In this document: one piece after another, positions 1-19,634 of the stretch
Numbering within the stretch: position 1 is the first letter of the stretch
How the letters are laid out: each line of letters begins with the position of its first letter
Virus record (IMG/VR): IMGVR_UViG_3300047487_000047
Span: 1 to 20,125 of that record
Source of the DNA: a virus
Reading direction: 5' to 3' (one strand)
DNA: 20,125 nt
The notes under the pieces: generated by a model
The model's input: the letters and a program-made list of their open reading frames with translations, nothing else
Database searches by the model: none
Told to the model about the DNA's origin: nothing
Program-made: the position numbers and the translations under genes

Positions 1-945
1 GACGAGGCACTCATGTACCAGGAGTTCCCGCCGACAGAAGACTATGCCTTCGTGATGACAGGCACTTCCTTCTTCTCCACCACCCGGTGTACAGAAGCAG
101 CCAAGGCTTCCAAGACCCTTGCGCCCGACCATTACCGCTATGCCTTCGGTTCTCTCTTCCAGGACACGGAAGTCCTCAAGAGCACGGAAAGGCTAGGCGT
201 CCTCAAGGTTTACGAAGAGCCTATAGACAACGCCTACTATGTCATCGGAGCAGACCCGGCTTACGGCAGTTCTGACTGGGCAGACCGTTTCTGCATCCAG
301 GTCTTCCGCTGCTACGCTGACGGGATGGAGCAGGTGGCCGAGTTCGCCACCTCTGAACTCAATACCTACCAGTTCGCCTGGGTTATTGCCCACCTCGCAG
401 GTGCCTACAAGAACTCCACGCTGAACTTGGAGGTGAATGGGCCTGGTCAGGCCGTCATCAACGAGATCAGGAATCTCAAGCGGATGGCCGTGAGCATGAA
501 CAATGCCACGGGGCGTGGTCTGCTGGATGTGCTGGGCAGCATGACCAACTACATCTGGCGCCGGAATGATGCGCTGGGTGGCATCTCCAACTCCATAGGC
601 TACGTCACCACCCACGCCAGTAAAGAGCGGATGCTCAACTACATGAAGGATTACTTTGAGCGCGGGATGATGGAGATCAAAAGCATGGACACCCTAGAAG
701 AGATGAAGGGTATCGTGCGGGAAGGTGGCACCATCCACGCCCCAGGCAGGGCCAAGGATGACCGGGTGATCGCCTCTGCGCTGGCTGCGGTGGCATTTGC
801 AGAGCAGGTGCAGCCCAGGCTTATAGCCGCGAGGATTACCCGCAACATCTCCCAAGCCCAAGACAACATGACGGTGCAGGAAGCGCAGATAGGGCGCAAC
901 GTGGCCGACTACCTCAAGAAGATCGGGATGTACGGCACCAATTAA
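1..945 (+). CDS. terL: Terminase large subunit, C-terminal nuclease part (5' truncated by window edge)
   Basis: This is the nuclease half of the phage DNA-packaging motor subunit, which cuts concatemeric DNA while the N-terminal ATPase (outside the window) pumps it into the prohead. The frame is open from base 1, so the gene begins upstream; the ATG at base 13 is internal. The RNase H-like metal site can be traced as GADPAYGSSDWADRF (first Asp at codon 253-255), LEVNGPGQAV (acidic Glu about residue 144 of the visible part) and GRAKDDRVIASALA (third acidic pair about residues 253-254). This D-E-D order is typical of TerL nucleases. The stop TAA is followed after 32 bases by the HNH gene. Identification of the domain is firm; the Walker motifs cannot be seen here. 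Confidence 0.93.
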   Translation, partial: DEALMYQEFPPTEDYAFVMTGTSFFSTTRCTEAAKASKTLAPDHYRYAFGSLFQDTEVLKSTERLGVLKVYEEPIDNAYYVIGADPAYGSSDWADRFCIQVFRCYADGMEQVAEFATSELNTYQFAWVIAHLAGAYKNSTLNLEVNGPGQAVINEIRNLKRMAVSMNNATGRGLLDVLGSMTNYIWRRNDALGGISNSIGYVTTHASKERMLNYMKDYFERGMMEIKSMDTLEEMKGIVREGGTIHAPGRAKDDRVIASALAAVAFAEQVQPRLIAARITRNISQAQDNMTVQEAQIGRNVADYLKKIGMYGTN

Positions 946-951
946 CAAGAT

Positions 952-974
952 ACAATCTCCTAAAAGGAGGTTGT
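952..974 (+). promoter_or_regulatory. RNA hairpin sequestering the Shine-Dalgarno of the HNH gene
   Basis: Bases 952-961 (ACAATCTCCT) pair with 965-974 (AGGAGGTTGT) across an AAA loop. All ten positions pair, one of them as a G-U wobble (956-970). The AGGAGG Shine-Dalgarno core lies wholly in the 3' arm, 7 bases before the ATG at 978. No U-tract follows, so it does not look like an intrinsic terminator. Hairpins that block translation are established for several T4-type phage homing endonuclease genes; assigning that role here is inference. Confidence 0.6.
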
Positions 975-977
975 TCT

Positions 978-1520
978 ATGGACTCGGACAAACGGAAAGA
1001 GCAAAAGCGTCTAGCAGCACAGCGGTATCGGGAGCGTCATCCTGATGTTGTTAAAGCTAGGAATCGAGATCAGTACGAGAAGAACAGGAAAGACCGCATT
1101 GACTACGCAAAAAGCTACTACCTCAAGAACAAAGACAAAAGACTAGAGCAAACCAAGCAGCGATACCAAGAGAATAAAGAGCTGCAAAGCAAGAAGTACA
1201 AGGACTTTAGAAAAACAAATCCAGACTTTGTTCGTGAGCGAGACAGGAAGTACTACATCAAACGAAAGTACGGTCTAACGTTGGAACAGCTAGGTGATCT
1301 TTGGGTGAGTCAAGATGGTAAGTGTGCAAACACAAGATGCGGCTCAACGTTGTTCAGAGGTCTGGGTGGATACGCTATCGATCACTGCCATAGTTCTGGG
1401 AAAGTTCGTGGCTTGTTGTGTATGGCTTGCAATGTTGCTCTTGGCCACATGGATGACAAGATTGAAAAGCTGATGGGACTGATTTACTACCTCAGAAGCA
1501 AGGGCGTCGTTAATGCATGA
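978..1520 (+). CDS. HNH endonuclease, recombination endonuclease VII type
   Basis: This is a 180-aa endonuclease with a very basic N-terminal half (residues 1-95, Lys/Arg/Gln/Tyr-rich, likely helical DNA binding) and a C-terminal endonuclease VII-like HNH domain. The domain begins at YGLTLEQLGDLW (residue 98). Zinc ligands are visible as C116/C121 and C148/C151, and the catalytic set as D135-H136-x-H138 with N152. This matches the T4 endonuclease VII pattern of Cys pairs plus DHxH and Asn, except that the first pair is CxxxxC rather than CxxC. The start is set by AAAAGGAGG at 962-970, which is held in a hairpin. The gene is visibly A-rich compared with terL and portal, which suggests a recent arrival. 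It is probably a free-standing mobile or homing nuclease. A role in resolving DNA junctions for packaging is the alternative. Confidence 0.85.
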   Translation: MDSDKRKEQKRLAAQRYRERHPDVVKARNRDQYEKNRKDRIDYAKSYYLKNKDKRLEQTKQRYQENKELQSKKYKDFRKTNPDFVRERDRKYYIKRKYGLTLEQLGDLWVSQDGKCANTRCGSTLFRGLGGYAIDHCHSSGKVRGLLCMACNVALGHMDDKIEKLMGLIYYLRSKGVVNA

Positions 1521-2307
1521 CAAGTTAACAGTCGTGGCCATCTACGGCCACAACAGCGGAGAAAGCGCGGTTCCATCTCTGGAGCGTTCGCTACTAGAAC
1601 TTCCTGGTGCTCAAGGCTTGCTGATCTCTCCTCGCAGGCCACGCAACCTTCCTAAGCACATCCGGCACAAGAAGTGCCACAAGATGACCTACAAGCAGTA
1701 CAGCCTCTTCGTGATGTACTGCCTGCACACCTACATCAAGACAGAGTTCTGCCTCATCGTGCAGGACGACGGGTGGGTGCTCAACGGACAGAACTTCACC
1801 GAGGACTACTACCAGTACGACTATGTAGGAGCGCCTGCCCACGCAGCAATGGTCGGAAACAACTATCACATCCAGTTTTCCTGGCAACACGAGAAAGACC
1901 CGCTGGTGGTGCAAAACGGAGGGTTCTCCCTGCGCTCCCGCAAGTTCCTGCGCCAGCTTGCCAAGAGCGGCATCGTCTGGAAGCACTTTGATGTAGAACC
2001 GTTCTGCAACGAGGATGTGCAGCTGTGCACTTGGCTGCGCCCGGAGCTGGAGAAACACGGCATCAAGTTCGCGCCCGTGGAGGTGGCCAAGCACTTCAGC
2101 ATGGAATATGCCGGTTTAGGCTTCCACGACGACCTGGACTTCTCAAAGCTGGTGGGGCATCACGGCCCTACCCGCAAACTTGTCGGTGATAACCACATCA
2201 AGATCACCGCACCCATGTCAAAAGTGAGTGATTACTACCGAGAGCTGGAGTTTCTCCACTTCCTGCAAGAAAAAGGCTATGCCCTGGAGTGTCATGAGCC
2301 ATCCTGA
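1513..2307 (+). CDS. DUF5672-like putative glycosyltransferase
   Basis: This 264-aa protein looks like the DUF5672 family, which has a GT-A-like glycosyltransferase character. Supporting blocks in order are MTYKQYSLFV (58-67), VQDDGWVL (83-90, the DxD-like acidic site for a sugar nucleotide and metal), DYVGAP (103-108), QNGGFSLRSRKFL (134-146), NEDVQLC (166-172) and FAPVEVAKHFSME (186-198). No signal peptide or membrane segment is visible, so it is cytoplasmic. It starts 8 bases inside the end of the HNH gene, with AAGGG at 1500-1504 as the SD, so translation is probably coupled. Its substrate cannot be read from sequence; a virion protein, phage DNA, or host surface sugar are all possible. 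It is an accessory (moron-like) gene between terminase and portal. Confidence 0.72.
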   Translation: MHDKLTVVAIYGHNSGESAVPSLERSLLELPGAQGLLISPRRPRNLPKHIRHKKCHKMTYKQYSLFVMYCLHTYIKTEFCLIVQDDGWVLNGQNFTEDYYQYDYVGAPAHAAMVGNNYHIQFSWQHEKDPLVVQNGGFSLRSRKFLRQLAKSGIVWKHFDVEPFCNEDVQLCTWLRPELEKHGIKFAPVEVAKHFSMEYAGLGFHDDLDFSKLVGHHGPTRKLVGDNHIKITAPMSKVSDYYRELEFLHFLQEKGYALECHEPS

Positions 2308-12041: not shown

Positions 12042-13964
12042 ATGACTGTCCCGTATTCCTTTGCCAACGCGACTGTTTCTATTCCGCTGTCGCAGCTGGA
12101 CTCCAACTTCAACACGCCCGTCACGCTCGGCAACACCGCTATTCAGTTGGGCAACACGGTTACCACGCTCAACAACATGACGTTGGCTAACGTGACCATC
12201 AGCAGCGGCAATGTCACGATCACAAACGTGACGGTGACGACTGCCAACGTGACCACGCTCAACGCAGCAACAGTCATTGCCACGACGGCCAACGTCACTA
12301 CTGCCAATATCACGACTGGGAACGTCACCACAGCCAACATCGTCACTGCCAACATCACCACCGGCAATGTGACGAACATGAGCAGTGGCAACGTGACGAT
12401 CACGGGCGGCAGCATCAACGGCACCACGCTAGGCGCTAGCACCGCAAGCACGGCCAACGTCACCACCCTGACCACTTCCTCAACTGTCACGATCAACGGA
12501 GGAACCGCCAACGGAGTGGCCTACCTCAATGGGTCAAAGGTGCTGACCACGGGGAGTGCGCTGACTTTTGATGGTGTGAGTCTTGGTATTGGGGGTGTTG
12601 GCACATCGGACGGGCGGGCGGTTTTTTATGAGGCCGTGGCAGGGAGTGGTGCGGCTTTTTATAGTTCTGGCGGCAACTCTGCGGGCGTCATTGGAACGAC
12701 CAACGAAGCATCAACATCAAATGGCTTGCTTATCAATGCTTTTAGAAGCGGGGGGAAGATAGCGTTTAATGTTGCAGGCTCCGAACAAATGCGCCTGACC
12801 AGCACAGGGCTGGGTATTGGGACGAGTTCGCCTTCGTATTCAGTTCAGTCTTATGGTACAGCACCGGCGATTGCGGTAGGAGGTACAACTTATTTATCAA
12901 ATGCCGCGACTGTTGGCGCAAGTTTTATTTTGCGGTCTGAAAACACTTCTTCATGGGCTGGTACAAGAGAACTTGTTAGTTTTGATAGCGTCGGCAATGG
13001 CGCTGACCACAGAACTGGTTCACTTTCTGTAAAACTTAAAGCGTCAGCAGCGGCAAGTTCATTGACTGAATATTTGAACATCAATGCCGTGTCAGGTACG
13101 GCAGTTTTTTCTAATGTCAACCTCGGCTTGGGGGTTACGCCGAGTGCTTGGAGTGCGTTTAAGGCATTTGAGATTGCATCCGCAGGCAATTCGGTTTGGT
13201 CGGCAGGATCGAACGATATTCGTGTTGCATCAAACTACGTTTATAACGGCGGCGCCAAGTTTGCTGTCAATGGTCGTGCTGCGATGTACGAGCAAGGCGC
13301 CGGAATTCACTACTGGTACACATCTTCAACCTCCGGCACCGCAGGAAACGCCATCAGTTTCACGCAGGCGATGACGCTGGATGCGAGTGGGAATTTGCTG
13401 GTGGGGACGACGAGTACTATTGCAGGAGCAAAGGTTTCAGTTGTAGGAAATGTGCAGGACACTCTTGTGCGTTTTCAAAACCAAAACGCTACTGCTCCCG
13501 GAGGGTTAGATGTTCACTATTCAAACGCTGCAACAAATGACGCAAATAATTGGTTTTATTTGGCAAGAGATAGTGGAGCCACTCGTTTTTATGTACGCTC
13601 AGACGGCGGTATTGCCAACTACAGCGCTAATGATGTCAACCTATCCGACCGCCTAGAGAAAACGAACTTTGCACCGGCCAAGGATTACCTTGACACCATC
13701 TGCGCTATTCCGGTGCAGACGTTCAACTATATTGACCAGTCTGAAAACAATCCCGGCCTAACGCTAGGCGTGGTGGCGCAAGACGTTCAAGCAGTTGCTC
13801 CTGAGTTGGTCATGGAGTCAAACTGGGGCACTGAGGACGATCCCAAGATGCGCCTGAGCATCTACCAGACTGACCTTCAGTATGCATTGATGAAGTGCAT
13901 CCAAGAACTCAAGGCACAGAACGACGACCTCCGCGCCCGCGTAGCGGCGCTTGAAGCCAAGTAA
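12042..13964 (+). CDS. Tail fibre/spike with C-terminal S74 intramolecular chaperone
   Basis: This 640-aa protein is probably a trimeric host-recognition fibre. Residues 1-20 (MTVPYSFANATVSIPLSQLD) are an attachment segment. Residues 40-145 contain pentapeptide-like repeats. Residues 190-530 are beta-rich with fibre motifs such as SEQMRLTSTGLGIGTSSP. Residues 535-640 form the Peptidase_S74 chaperone domain (SDRLEKTNF, FNYIDQSENNPGLTLGVVAQ, then VAPELV and a coiled-coil end). By family knowledge this domain folds the trimer and then cuts itself off at the Ser-Lys dyad, here Ser535 and Lys540, spaced as usual by five. The intervening residues are D-R-L-E rather than the common D-x-R-L. The middle part of the gene is AT-rich. 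The SD is about GTGAGG before 12042. Confidence 0.85.
   Translation: MTVPYSFANATVSIPLSQLDSNFNTPVTLGNTAIQLGNTVTTLNNMTLANVTISSGNVTITNVTVTTANVTTLNAATVIATTANVTTANITTGNVTTANIVTANITTGNVTNMSSGNVTITGGSINGTTLGASTASTANVTTLTTSSTVTINGGTANGVAYLNGSKVLTTGSALTFDGVSLGIGGVGTSDGRAVFYEAVAGSGAAFYSSGGNSAGVIGTTNEASTSNGLLINAFRSGGKIAFNVAGSEQMRLTSTGLGIGTSSPSYSVQSYGTAPAIAVGGTTYLSNAATVGASFILRSENTSSWAGTRELVSFDSVGNGADHRTGSLSVKLKASAAASSLTEYLNINAVSGTAVFSNVNLGLGVTPSAWSAFKAFEIASAGNSVWSAGSNDIRVASNYVYNGGAKFAVNGRAAMYEQGAGIHYWYTSSTSGTAGNAISFTQAMTLDASGNLLVGTTSTIAGAKVSVVGNVQDTLVRFQNQNATAPGGLDVHYSNAATNDANNWFYLARDSGATRFYVRSDGGIANYSANDVNLSDRLEKTNFAPAKDYLDTICAIPVQTFNYIDQSENNPGLTLGVVAQDVQAVAPELVMESNWGTEDDPKMRLSIYQTDLQYALMKCIQELKAQNDDLRARVAALEAK
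12288..12377 (+). repeat. Six consecutive pentapeptide-like repeats in the fibre gene (15-nt period)
   Basis: Reading from 12288 the codons give ANVTT, ANITT, GNVTT, ANIVT, ANITT and GNVTN, each 15 bases, fitting the A/G-N-V/I-x-x pattern of pentapeptide repeats, which form quadrilateral beta-helices. Less regular units extend from about 12170 to 12440. Codons differ between copies. Confidence 0.7.
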
Positions 13965-15773: not shown

Positions 15774-18700
15774 ATGGCTACAAGACTAGGCACAGAAGGC
15801 GAGATGGAGCAGCTGGACGCTGATGTTTTTGACCTTATGCAGCGTGAGCAAGGGTCTGCTCCTGCCGCAGCTCCTTCCCCTGCCCCGGTTTCAGCTCCTG
15901 CTGCTGCTGCGCCTGCTCCCGCGCCTGCCGCGACAGGTGGTGTTGATGAGCAATCTACTGATCGTGGCGTGTACTACGACGCTGATTTGGGCTACTTCAC
16001 TAGCGCAAATGCAGAGCGTCAGATTGCAAAGCTGCGTGAGAAGTACACGGATTGGGAAATTACGCCCATCTTTACCGAGATTACGGATAGAGAAGGGCAG
16101 GTCACCTACGCAGAGCCAATCCTGCGCTATCAAATCAGGAAGGCTATTCCTGGTGGTCTGCTAGACATCCGTCTGTTAGATACAGCTGGCAATGAGACAT
16201 TCCGTGAAGTAGAGCGGCAACAAGGCTTCTTGCAAAGTCCAGTCGTTGGCATTCTTGTTTCTGCTGCTGTTCCAGGCTTGGGAGAGTTCTTTGCTGCTCA
16301 ACTGGCTGCAGCAGGTGCGCTGACAGGCGCAACCGCCACAACGGTTGGTAATGCGCTGGCCAAGATTGCCGTAGATGTGGCTACTGGCAAGGACTTGGAA
16401 GATGCGGTGCGGGATACCGCCATCTCTGCAGGTATCTCTGCGGGAATGCCCAACATTGCTCCTGCCATTTCTGAACTGGTAAGTGATCCTAATGTTGGAA
16501 AAATTCTTCAAAACGCAGGGGCTGCGGCAGTCAATGCTGCAGTAGGCGGAAAGGACGGACAGGGCATCCTACTTGCTGCTGTTGGTGCAGCGGCAGGCAC
16601 AGCCGCAGCTGTAGAAGGCGGTGCTACTGCAGGTCGTGCAGTGCAGAGTCTTATTACTAGCGGTGGTGATCCCACGGCTGCACTTGCTGCTGTTGGTGGA
16701 GGTCTTGCCGGACAGGCTGGTGAAGCTGTTGCTAGAGAAGTAACGCAGGGCGGTGATACAGGATTGCCAGAAGGTGTTGCAAGGCTTCCATCAACTCCTG
16801 ATACCGGCACACGGGTTACCACTGGGCCTTCTCTTCCAGAAACCAGAACCACGGTGACGACCACGGGCGGTGGTGAAGGTGGCGGTGGTACGGGCGGTGG
16901 ACAAGGTGGAGAAACGGCTGTAGACCCCAGCAGCCAAGAAGTCATTATTGCCCAGCAGTTCTTGCCACCAGGCGTGCGTATTCAGACTTTCAATCAGTTG
17001 GAAGCTGTGCGTGTGCTTTCACAGGCGAACCCTAACCTGCTTGCAAGCATGAGTCAGGGTGATCTGAACGAGGCCGCAGGATTCATCCTCAACAACCAAG
17101 AAGAGCAACTTGCTCAGCGTGCTGTTGTTACGCCGGTTGGACAAGGACTTGGACTTGCTCCACGAGCTACCACGACCTTTACTGTGGAGACGATTCCGCA
17201 AGATATGGGTGAAGCATTCACCGAGTCTAATGGAGCCGTTTACTTTCAACAGGGTGATAAGACATTCCGTGTTGCATCTCAAGACGATGTAAACCGCAGT
17301 CTTGGCGAGGTCACGCTATTTTTTGATGATAAAGGTCGTGCCTATTATGGGCTTCCTGTTCAAACACCAACAGGCAAGTTCATGACGGATGCCGAGAAAA
17401 AGGCAGACATTCAACAGCAGTATGTAACTGATGCATCACAACAAATTGATGAGTTTACCGGCCAGCCTTTGCTTCTTACGCCTAACACGGGAGGCAACAT
17501 TGGTGGTGACAATGCCGCTCGCTTTGTTGCTGCAGCAACAGCAAAAGGCGTTGGTGAGCAAATTGGCTATCTAGCAACAGCGACTGGTAGCCAAAAGCTA
17601 CAAGACATTGCTTCTGCGCTGACAAGTTACGGTAAGGGCGCAACTAGCGCCAATGTTCGTATTGGCCAAAACGATATTGTCAACTCCATTGCCAATGCAG
17701 AAGGGTTTGGCAAGGTTGTGGCTGGCATTACGGCGGCTCTACGCAATCCTGCAGCTGCTCTTGACTGGGGCTTTAGTGAAGGTGTGCAAGAGTTTGTGCC
17801 TCTTGTTGCAGGCGTGGGCGTTGGCCGTGCAGTTAGCGCAGCAACCAAGGCAGCGTTTGGGCAAAAGATTGCAAGCAAGTATGGTGTTGCTTCAGCTGTA
17901 GGCACTAACGCCACACTTGATGCTGGTGAGTCTGCGATTGCAACTTACCAGACGGTTAAAGATAGCCTCATTAACCGAGGGTTTAGCGAAGAGCGTGCAA
18001 CCAAGATTGCGCTTCCTGCTGCTTTTGCCTCTGGCCTTATCACGCTTATCACTACCGCACTAGGCGAGTCAGAGCTTGTTGCGGCAGCAACTAAAAATGT
18101 TCCTGGCTCTGTGACTCGCTCTCTTGCGCGAGAAATGCCTGCAGAGTGGGGTGAAGGTTTTGGACAAAGTGTTGTTGAAACCGTTGCCATAACCAATAAG
18201 TTGCCAACATTAGATCAAGCATTGACTGGCGGCACGCTTGAGATGTTGATTGCTGGCACCACAACTGGTGGCATTACTGCAGGACAGTCTGTGCTTACAG
18301 GTACAGGTACTGGCACGGAGACGGGAACTGGCGCAGGTGCAGGAACCGGCGCTGCAGCCGGTACAGGCGCAACCACTGGTACCGCAGCCACGACAGGAAC
18401 AGGTGCTGCTGCTACAACTGGAGGCACTGGCGCGGGTACTGCTGCCACTACAGGAAATGCAGGCGTAGTGATTGCCACGACTGGCAATACCGCGCTAGTC
18501 ATCGACAACAGTGGTGTCGTTTCTGTCGTCAACAACAACACAGGCGCAAATGCAGGCAGTGTGGTGACGCTAGACAGCACTGGTGGGAACATCACCAGCA
18601 ATACTGGTGCTACCAACACCAACCTCACCAACAGTGGGTTGACCAACAACACGCTAACGGTTTCTCAAAACACTGCCAACAACATCAACAACACAGTCAA

Positions 18701-19634
18701 TAACTTGGCCAGCACTGGTCTTGTTACCAACAACGATGTGACGAGTGGCGCTGCAGCTACAGCTGTTGTGCAGTTAGCGGCAACTACGGGAACCAGTGTT
18801 GAGACTGTCAACAACGCGACTAACACTCTTGTCAACAACGTCAACGCCGCCACTTCTACGACTGGTGGCGGTACAAACCTTGGCGTGGTCATTGCCGCAG
18901 ACACGACGACAGGCCAGGTTTTGGTGGCAGATACCACCGGCAACACGCAGATCGTCAATGCAGGTACAGGCGTAAATGTTGGCTCAACTGTAAATCTGAC
19001 TACAGACACGCAGACAGGCGGGACGGTGGCCAACAACGTCACGGCTGCGCCTGCAACTACTGCACAGGTTACTGCTGCACCCGAGACGACAGCAGCACCG
19101 GCCACCACAACCACACCGGAAACCACTGCGGCACCGGAAACCACGCCAGAAGTACAGCCCGAGGTGACTCCGGAGACAACGCCGACGACTACGCCGGAAA
19201 CGACTCCGACTACAACCCCGGAGACAACTCCTACTACCACCCCGACCACAACGCCAACTACAACGCCTGTCTCCACTCCTGAGCGTGAGGATGAGATCAC
19301 AGCGGAGTTGCTGCGGTTGATTGAGTTGGACAACTTGCGTGGTGTGCCTGACCTGCAGATAGAAGAAGAAACCACGGTGCCGGAAGAACCACAAGGCCCA
19401 ACAACAGAGGCTCCAGAAGAACAGCGTGGTCAAGCTGGGCGTGGAGGGGTTCGCATTCCTCTTGGCCAAACAATTCCTCTTGGTCGAGCCATTCGTGGTG
19501 TGACTCAGACCGGGCTACAAGAGTCGTTGACATCATTCAGGCCAGCGGGTGAAATTCGCGCTGGGACGGGCAAGCCTCGCCGTAATGTGTGGAATGAGGC
19601 TTCTTTGCGGCTAAAAGACGCATTAGGACTGTGA
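15774..19634 (+). CDS. Very large (1286 aa) composite virion protein, candidate ejection/internal protein
   Basis: No named family is recognised. Layout: residues 1-30 acidic, then an Ala/Pro linker (about 30-55). Residues 65-150 are a globular piece (DADLGYFTSANAERQIAKLR, PGGLLDIRLLDTAGNE). Residues about 156-345 are hydrophobic Ala/Gly-rich helices (SPVVGILVSAAVPGLGEFF and later GG-rich helices). Residues about 345-390 are a Thr/Gly linker. Residues about 390-840 are mixed helical, with LITLITTALGESELVAAA near 749-772. Residues about 839-896 are Gly/Thr/Ala repeats. Residues about 897-1090 are Asn/Thr-rich with a duplicated module. Residues 1094-1168 are Thr/Pro repeats, followed by a basic C-terminus ending WNEASLRLKDALGL. 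Membrane-compatible helices and a place after the neck/fibre genes resemble P22-type ejection proteins; this is inference. The start follows GGGGTGTGAG closely. Confidence 0.6.
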   Translation: MATRLGTEGEMEQLDADVFDLMQREQGSAPAAAPSPAPVSAPAAAAPAPAPAATGGVDEQSTDRGVYYDADLGYFTSANAERQIAKLREKYTDWEITPIFTEITDREGQVTYAEPILRYQIRKAIPGGLLDIRLLDTAGNETFREVERQQGFLQSPVVGILVSAAVPGLGEFFAAQLAAAGALTGATATTVGNALAKIAVDVATGKDLEDAVRDTAISAGISAGMPNIAPAISELVSDPNVGKILQNAGAAAVNAAVGGKDGQGILLAAVGAAAGTAAAVEGGATAGRAVQSLITSGGDPTAALAAVGGGLAGQAGEAVAREVTQGGDTGLPEGVARLPSTPDTGTRVTTGPSLPETRTTVTTTGGGEGGGGTGGGQGGETAVDPSSQEVIIAQQFLPPGVRIQTFNQLEAVRVLSQANPNLLASMSQGDLNEAAGFILNNQEEQLAQRAVVTPVGQGLGLAPRATTTFTVETIPQDMGEAFTESNGAVYFQQGDKTFRVASQDDVNRSLGEVTLFFDDKGRAYYGLPVQTPTGKFMTDAEKKADIQQQYVTDASQQIDEFTGQPLLLTPNTGGNIGGDNAARFVAAATAKGVGEQIGYLATATGSQKLQDIASALTSYGKGATSANVRIGQNDIVNSIANAEGFGKVVAGITAALRNPAAALDWGFSEGVQEFVPLVAGVGVGRAVSAATKAAFGQKIASKYGVASAVGTNATLDAGESAIATYQTVKDSLINRGFSEERATKIALPAAFASGLITLITTALGESELVAAATKNVPGSVTRSLAREMPAEWGEGFGQSVVETVAITNKLPTLDQALTGGTLEMLIAGTTTGGITAGQSVLTGTGTGTETGTGAGAGTGAAAGTGATTGTAATTGTGAAATTGGTGAGTAATTGNAGVVIATTGNTALVIDNSGVVSVVNNNTGANAGSVVTLDSTGGNITSNTGATNTNLTNSGLTNNTLTVSQNTANNINNTVNNLASTGLVTNNDVTSGAAATAVVQLAATTGTSVETVNNATNTLVNNVNAATSTTGGGTNLGVVIAADTTTGQVLVADTTGNTQIVNAGTGVNVGSTVNLTTDTQTGGTVANNVTAAPATTAQVTAAPETTAAPATTTTPETTAAPETTPEVQPEVTPETTPTTTPETTPTTTPETTPTTTPTTTPTTTPVSTPEREDEITAELLRLIELDNLRGVPDLQIEEETTVPEEPQGPTTEAPEEQRGQAGRGGVRIPLGQTIPLGRAIRGVTQTGLQESLTSFRPAGEIRAGTGKPRRNVWNEASLRLKDALGL
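18290..18461 (+). repeat. Gly/Thr/Ala low-complexity tract in the 1286-aa protein gene
   Basis: Codons give nearly pure G, T and A, as in GTGTGTETGTGAGAGTG and ATTGTGAAATTGGTGAG, about 57 residues with two-residue periodicity. It is probably an extended, flexible or glycine-zipper segment. Confidence 0.7.
18462..19002 (+). repeat. Duplicated VVIA...GSVVxL module flanking an Asn/Thr-rich tract
   Basis: Copy 1 (about 18462-18576) reads GVVIATTGNTALVIDNSG with NTGANAGSVVTL. Copy 2 (about 18882-19002) reads GVVIAADTTTGQVLVADTTG with GTGVNVGSTVNL. The interval between them is Asn/Thr-rich (NNINNTVNNLASTG). This is a protein-level duplication of about 40 aa. Confidence 0.6.
19173..19268 (+). repeat. 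Four tandem 24-nt (8-aa) Thr/Pro repeats, E/T-TTPTTTP
   Basis: Units 19173-19196, 19197-19220, 19221-19244 and 19245-19268 encode ETTPTTTP three times and TTTPTTTP once. Thr and Pro codons differ between units. Thr/Pro-rich sequence continues on both sides (about 19055-19280). Confidence 0.85.

Follow-up and report, generated by a model that had tools for sequence, protein, structure and literature searches.

A hairpin over the ribosome-binding site of an inserted HNH endonuclease gene combines T4-like anatomy with a host-type promoter-like box in a phage unrelated to T4

The window, by which we mean the whole 20,125-nucleotide stretch of viral DNA analyzed (IMG/VR record IMGVR_UViG_3300047487_000047), begins with the 3′ part of terL, followed on the same strand by an HNH gene and a DUF5672 gene. 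The features of this region are as follows.

1–945, plus strand: 3′ part of terL, terminase large subunit (PF17289, E 1e-6; PHROG terminase matches; hundreds of relatives)
938–1513, plus strand: inserted unit, consisting of the last two terL codons and stop, the leader and the HNH gene (from empty-site comparison; limits uncertain by a few bases)
951–956, plus strand: −10-like box TACAAT, the window's only TACAAT on either strand; six relatives have TATAAT or TACAAT there, after TG
952–961, plus strand: 5′ arm of the hairpin, ACAATCTCCT (read from the sequence and from RNA folding)
962–964, plus strand: hairpin loop AAA, where transcription is predicted to start, 6–8 nt past the −10-like box (from spacing)
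965–974, plus strand: 3′ arm of the hairpin, AGGAGGTTGT, containing the Shine–Dalgarno sequence (SD) at 965–970
978–1520, plus strand: endonuclease VII-type HNH gene, 180 aa (PF02945, E 3e-20; PHROG 2914, endonuclease VII, E 1e-28; alignments)
1513–2307, plus strand: DUF5672 gene (PF18922, E 9e-18)

The HNH protein scores 72.3 bits against Endonuclease_7 (PF02945), for which the curated cut-off is 23.6, and together with the PHROG matches this bears out the endonuclease VII-type assignment made in the first-pass annotation. The gene is intact, and its product retains the zinc cysteines and the residues of the IDHCH/N motif; Cys 116, 121, 148 and 151, D135, H136, H138 and N152 are invariant in the HNH protein alignment. 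The composition of the gene (GC 0.456, GC3 0.51) differs from that of terL (GC 0.574, GC3 0.76). In L008, L009, L011 and L012, whose terL is 97% identical, the site is empty, with GGCA joined directly to GTGCATGAC, and neither the HNH gene nor the hairpin is present. The terL stop of these relatives overlaps the DUF5672 start, just as the HNH stop does in the window. The insert of ~575 bp takes the place of the last terL codons, and its far end restores the stop/start overlap with DUF5672. These comparisons support the reading of 978–1520 as an Endonuclease_7 HNH gene inserted exactly between terL and the DUF5672 gene. In this group of close relatives the gene is an optional insert confined to a single site, as expected of a free-standing homing endonuclease, and it is best explained as a mobile, free-standing and presumably homing endonuclease gene with its own leader.

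A role of the HNH protein in packaging, as a constant partner of the terminase, is not supported, as only L055 has the gene among roughly 80 terL loci (L008–L090). Across the same loci, the slot just after terL holds several gene types (DUF5672 and others), and it therefore appears to serve gene exchange in general in addition to hosting the HNH gene. Elsewhere in the window, 12042–13964 encodes a tail fibre that carries long repeats of the NVTT type, and 15774–19634 encodes a protein of 1286 residues in which TTPETTPT repeats lie close to the end.

The hairpin at 952–974 reads ACAATCTCCT-AAA-AGGAGGTTGT and consists of 10 contiguous pairs between 952–961 and 965–974, one of them U–G. Every base of the SD AGGAGG (965–970) lies inside the stem, and the ATG follows at 978 with a spacing of 7 nt. 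Sequence and folding thus confirm the ten-pair stem, 3-base loop and fully paired SD described at the outset. The segment 949–977 folds with −12.8 kcal/mol (z −4.5), and none of 200 dinucleotide shuffles was as good. When the upstream part was shuffled with the SD-to-ATG stretch fixed, 8 of 3000 sequences equaled the window energy, and a single one of 3000 had both as good an energy and as closed an SD. All longer RNAs folded, with flanks of up to 400 nt each and contexts of up to 800 nt, keep the stem in their minimum-energy structure at pair probabilities of 0.8–1.0, and AGGAGG is predicted to be 3% unpaired. The loss of the fold in longer transcripts, named in the first-pass annotation as evidence against the control, was thus not observed. 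This SD is the strongest in the window, tied with that of the capsid gene, and its accessibility is among the lowest (table of 23 starts, disregarding those at 2284 and 2806, whose positions were mis-set). The hairpin is real and exact, exceeds chance and holds across contexts. An intrinsic terminator was rejected as its identity, since the plus strand has no T run after the hairpin and the scan gave only a weak minus-strand match (969–957). An Rfam search matched no family.

In seven distinct relatives the HNH gene occupies the same position after terL, with proteins 39–64% identical to that of the window: L100 (64%), L173 (57%), L154 (53%), L093 (49%), L055 and its near copy L092 (48%), L103 (48%) and L005 (39%). 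The window, L055 and L093 have DUF5672 as the 3′ neighbor of the gene, and L100, L103, L154, L173 and L005 have other genes there. Since the downstream genes differ and all seven homologs directly follow terL, terL is the constant neighbor. The leaders of the near-identical contigs L002–L004 show no variation and are uninformative. In L100, terL (1126–2969) is broken up over two reading frames that overlap and have a repeated stretch (YWDGKLTSEEKEWTRDIKKLYNVEI) in common, as would result from a misassembly or from a tandem duplication accompanied by a frameshift.

The window and all seven relatives except L005 share the leader core GATAYAATC, 6–8 nt before AGGAGG, among HNH proteins as low as 44% identical. 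L005, whose HNH protein is 39–42% identical, has an unrelated leader and no local hairpin. In the six core-bearing relatives the core forms an extended −10 box (TGnTAYAAT), and the window box is without TG. The leaders from box to ATG are listed below.

Window: GATACAATC TCCTAAA AGGAGG TTGTTCT ATG
L100: GATATAATC GCTTTC AGGAGG GTTACTT ATG
L154: GATATAATC ATCTTA AGGAGG TGGTT ATG
L173: GATACAATC TGGTC AGGAGG AAAT ATG
L093: GATATAATC TTGTC AGGAGG TTGGT ATG
L055: GATATAATC TTTTC AGGAGG TCTGT ATG
L103: GATATAATC TTGTC AGGAGG TCAAA ATG

L154 and L173 were found through the leader pattern, so their cores are not independent evidence; the other four core-bearing relatives were found through protein or terL similarity. 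About 25 bases of the leader are identical between L093 and L103, despite HNH proteins of only 53% identity. Within 576 kb of terL loci, TATAAT occurs 35 times against 109–145 expected from di- or trinucleotide content, and TGnTATAAT twice against 9–11 expected, one of the two being the L055 leader; both motifs are three- to five-fold rarer than expected. The sequence TTGATATAATC, followed at a similar distance by CAGGAGG, also stands ahead of unrelated phage genes that have no hairpin, as expected of a promoter. In L108, L112 and L115, TTGATATAATCTAACAGGAGG lies directly ahead of ordinary phage genes and places a −10 box about 5 nt upstream of the SD, an arrangement that implies RNA starting at the SD. 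The conserved core is most readily interpreted as a promoter of host type, from which RNA would begin at the SD. Within the set, the window has the weakest box, which reads TACAAT, lacks TG and has no more than 3 of 6 matches at −35. Most leaders have no convincing −35 box, and a sigma-70 two-box scan gave no full promoter at the window leader. The earlier suggestion that a promoter may free the SD is favored by the conservation of the box among relatives, and the box of the window itself counts against it.

The SD-hiding hairpins are less uniform than the box. They are strong in the window, L093 (stem burying the SD, −18.1 kcal/mol with z −5.2) and L103 (SD buried, −13.8 kcal/mol), each of the three being better in energy than >99% of SD-fixed shuffles. 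L154 has a moderate 12-pair stem (−9.9) that includes the AUG and four of the SD bases. In L100, L055 and L173, pairing is weak or absent with the SD retained, so that the loss of pairing named in the first-pass annotation as evidence against the control is found in some relatives and not in others. The geometry also varies: the 5′ arm of L093 and L103 (CTCTTGATA) lies mostly before the box, most of which falls in the loop, whereas the window arm starts inside the box and ends shortly before the SD, and that of L154 likewise begins in the box. The compensatory stem changes anticipated among relatives were not found, as a MAFFT alignment gave no support for covariation in either hairpin register; one pair of the window-type register is U–A in L154 and L100 and C–G in the window, a single anecdote that the formal counts do not support. 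The combined excess of SD-to-AUG opening cost over shuffles is modest, with a Fisher p of 0.014 over the six relatives (window excluded) and 0.010 when L103 is also dropped, the leaders being mutually related. The promoter-like core is therefore conserved, and the hairpin appears to recur without being strictly conserved. Since the window and L093 use different arms, hiding of the SD probably arose or was remade more than once.

Taken together, the locus is compatible with a T4-like switch in which a host-type promoter sits inside the hairpin, a functional reading to which we give about even chances. Read-through RNA from terL would include the 5′ arm (952–961), which would pair with the SD and keep ribosomes off. 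A host-type −10 box, placed in the 5′ arm or, in some relatives, the loop, would start an RNA at about 962–964, at the SD edge; since this short RNA would be missing the 5′ arm, its SD would be free and the HNH gene could be translated. HNH expression would then be tied to its own weak promoter and not to the structural operon. Folding predicts that the unpaired fraction of the SD rises from 0.03 to 0.68 when the RNA starts at 962–964. The cost of opening the SD-to-AUG stretch falls in all seven leaders when the RNA starts after the box (window, 14.6 to 5.1 kcal; L093, 10.8 to 1.4; L103, 10.6 to 2.8), a drop that is partly trivial, as any truncation takes away pairing partners. The hairpin, the insertion and its empty sites, the conserved box and its spacing, and the predicted opening of the SD in shorter RNA come directly out of the analysis, and promoter activity, silencing of read-through RNA and homing are inferred. 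A broader and more tentative reading, for which the case falls somewhat short of even, is a portable cassette: a host-type extended −10 promoter starting at the SD, with an SD hairpin remade from lineage-specific 5′ arms, would silence a mobile endonuclease gene in any operon of phages unrelated to T4.

The main rival is translational coupling, in which the hairpin shuts out newly arriving ribosomes, whereas those that have just completed terL unfold it and reinitiate on the HNH gene, with no separate promoter required. The terL stop lies 15–29 nt from the SD in the leaders examined and falls at or in the hairpin in L093 and L103, where a ribosome footprint reaching 9–14 nt past the stop is predicted to raise the unpaired fraction of the SD from 0.0 to 0.32–0.42 and from 0.13 to 0.5–0.6, respectively; the HNH gene itself also overlaps the start of the next gene. 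The window SD, however, stays closed (0.03–0.04 unpaired) with a footprint up to 14 nt past the stop, and coupling leaves unexplained the GATAYAATC box, which is kept even where the hairpin is weak. We regard coupling on its own as unlikely, though it need not exclude a promoter switch.

It is also conceivable that only the box is functional and that a strong SD near a pyrimidine-rich leader pairs by accident. The weak or absent hairpins of L100, L055, L173 and L005, the differing 5′ arms without covariation, and the absence of a hidden SD in all 16 other endonuclease VII genes examined from named phages are in line with such an accident. The shuffles of the window, L093 and L103 leaders argue against it, as does the use of different arms by the window and L093, which indicates that hiding arose or was remade more than once; an incidental hairpin is improbable. 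A DNA-level role, with the leader acting as an operator or target-site mimic whose inverted repeat is bound by the endonuclease, has a precedent in I-TevI, which represses its own late promoter (PMC2988022), and the nearly identical L093 and L103 leaders do contain, at the DNA level, an inverted repeat that spans the −10 box. The arms of the window and L093 have no common repeat, however, and no resemblance to the terL junction of the empty-site relatives was seen in an informal comparison, making this explanation highly improbable.

If the promoter switch operates as proposed, the rule known from T4, that mobile endonuclease genes hide their start and an internal promoter frees it, would extend to unrelated freshwater phages with an ordinary host promoter, as a convergent solution. 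The relatives would then offer a natural series on one leader (strong, moderate, weak and no hairpin) for testing the value of hiding. Palindromic leaders that pair the −10 box with the region of the SD also precede unrelated genes, of phages or prophages, in L164 (TATAATCACC...GGTGATTATA) and L159; a promoter-in-hairpin design may extend beyond endonucleases.

In T4, the ribosome-binding sites of I-TevI, I-TevII, I-TevIII, segB, gene 49 and others are hidden in read-through RNA (PMC2988022, PMC3014915), and a review describes the same for mobE of Aeh1 (PMC2988022). A promoter in or beside the 5′ arm yields an RNA unable to form the hairpin (PMC2988022, PMC3014915). Under identical folding settings, the leaders of gp49, I-TevI and I-TevII gave −16.3, −12.7 and −15.5 kcal/mol, a range that includes the window (−14.2), and each has a late-promoter-like box in its arm or loop; nothing similar was found in the T4 leaders of mobC, nrdD, pin, td and nrdA. 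The window leader thus matches the T4-type control proposed in the first-pass annotation in hairpin strength and in having a promoter-like box, and the 5′ arm differs between lineages. T4 gene 49 (endonuclease VII) shares with the window gene the Pfam family Endonuclease_7, an SD hairpin of similar strength and a promoter-like box in the 5′ arm (PMC3014915, PMC2988022), but its product is a resident resolvase of DNA junctions, expressed through phage late transcription, whereas the window gene is an optional insert with a host sigma-70 type box. The T4-type homing endonucleases lie inside the transcription unit of another gene, with a ribosome-binding site hidden on read-through and a promoter of their own whose RNA is without the 5′ arm (PMC2988022); the window gene resembles them in its placement and in the predicted hiding of its SD, and may have a comparable promoter. 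They use late or middle promoters, whereas the window belongs to a non-T4 phage with a podovirus-type capsid, its insert lies behind terL, and the hairpin of its group varies between lineages. The free-standing endonuclease VII genes of T7-like phages (e.g., gene 13.5 of phiYeO3-12) are of the same family and are also extra genes within phage operons, but the 16 examined have no SD-hiding hairpin and several overlap the upstream gene. The SD-hiding leader thus appears to be a trait of the terL-linked HNH lineage and not of endonuclease VII genes generally. In Synechococcus phage S-H68 (L118, 600–650), psbA and psbD flank an endonuclease VII gene that starts right after a terminator-like hairpin (AGAGGAG TTAACA CTCCTCT, then a T run). 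The feature in the window is real and T4-like in its anatomy. It is best read, as far as function can be inferred from this anatomy, as a variant of the SD hiding and internal promoter known from T4, in which a host-type promoter box would be used in a different group of phages.
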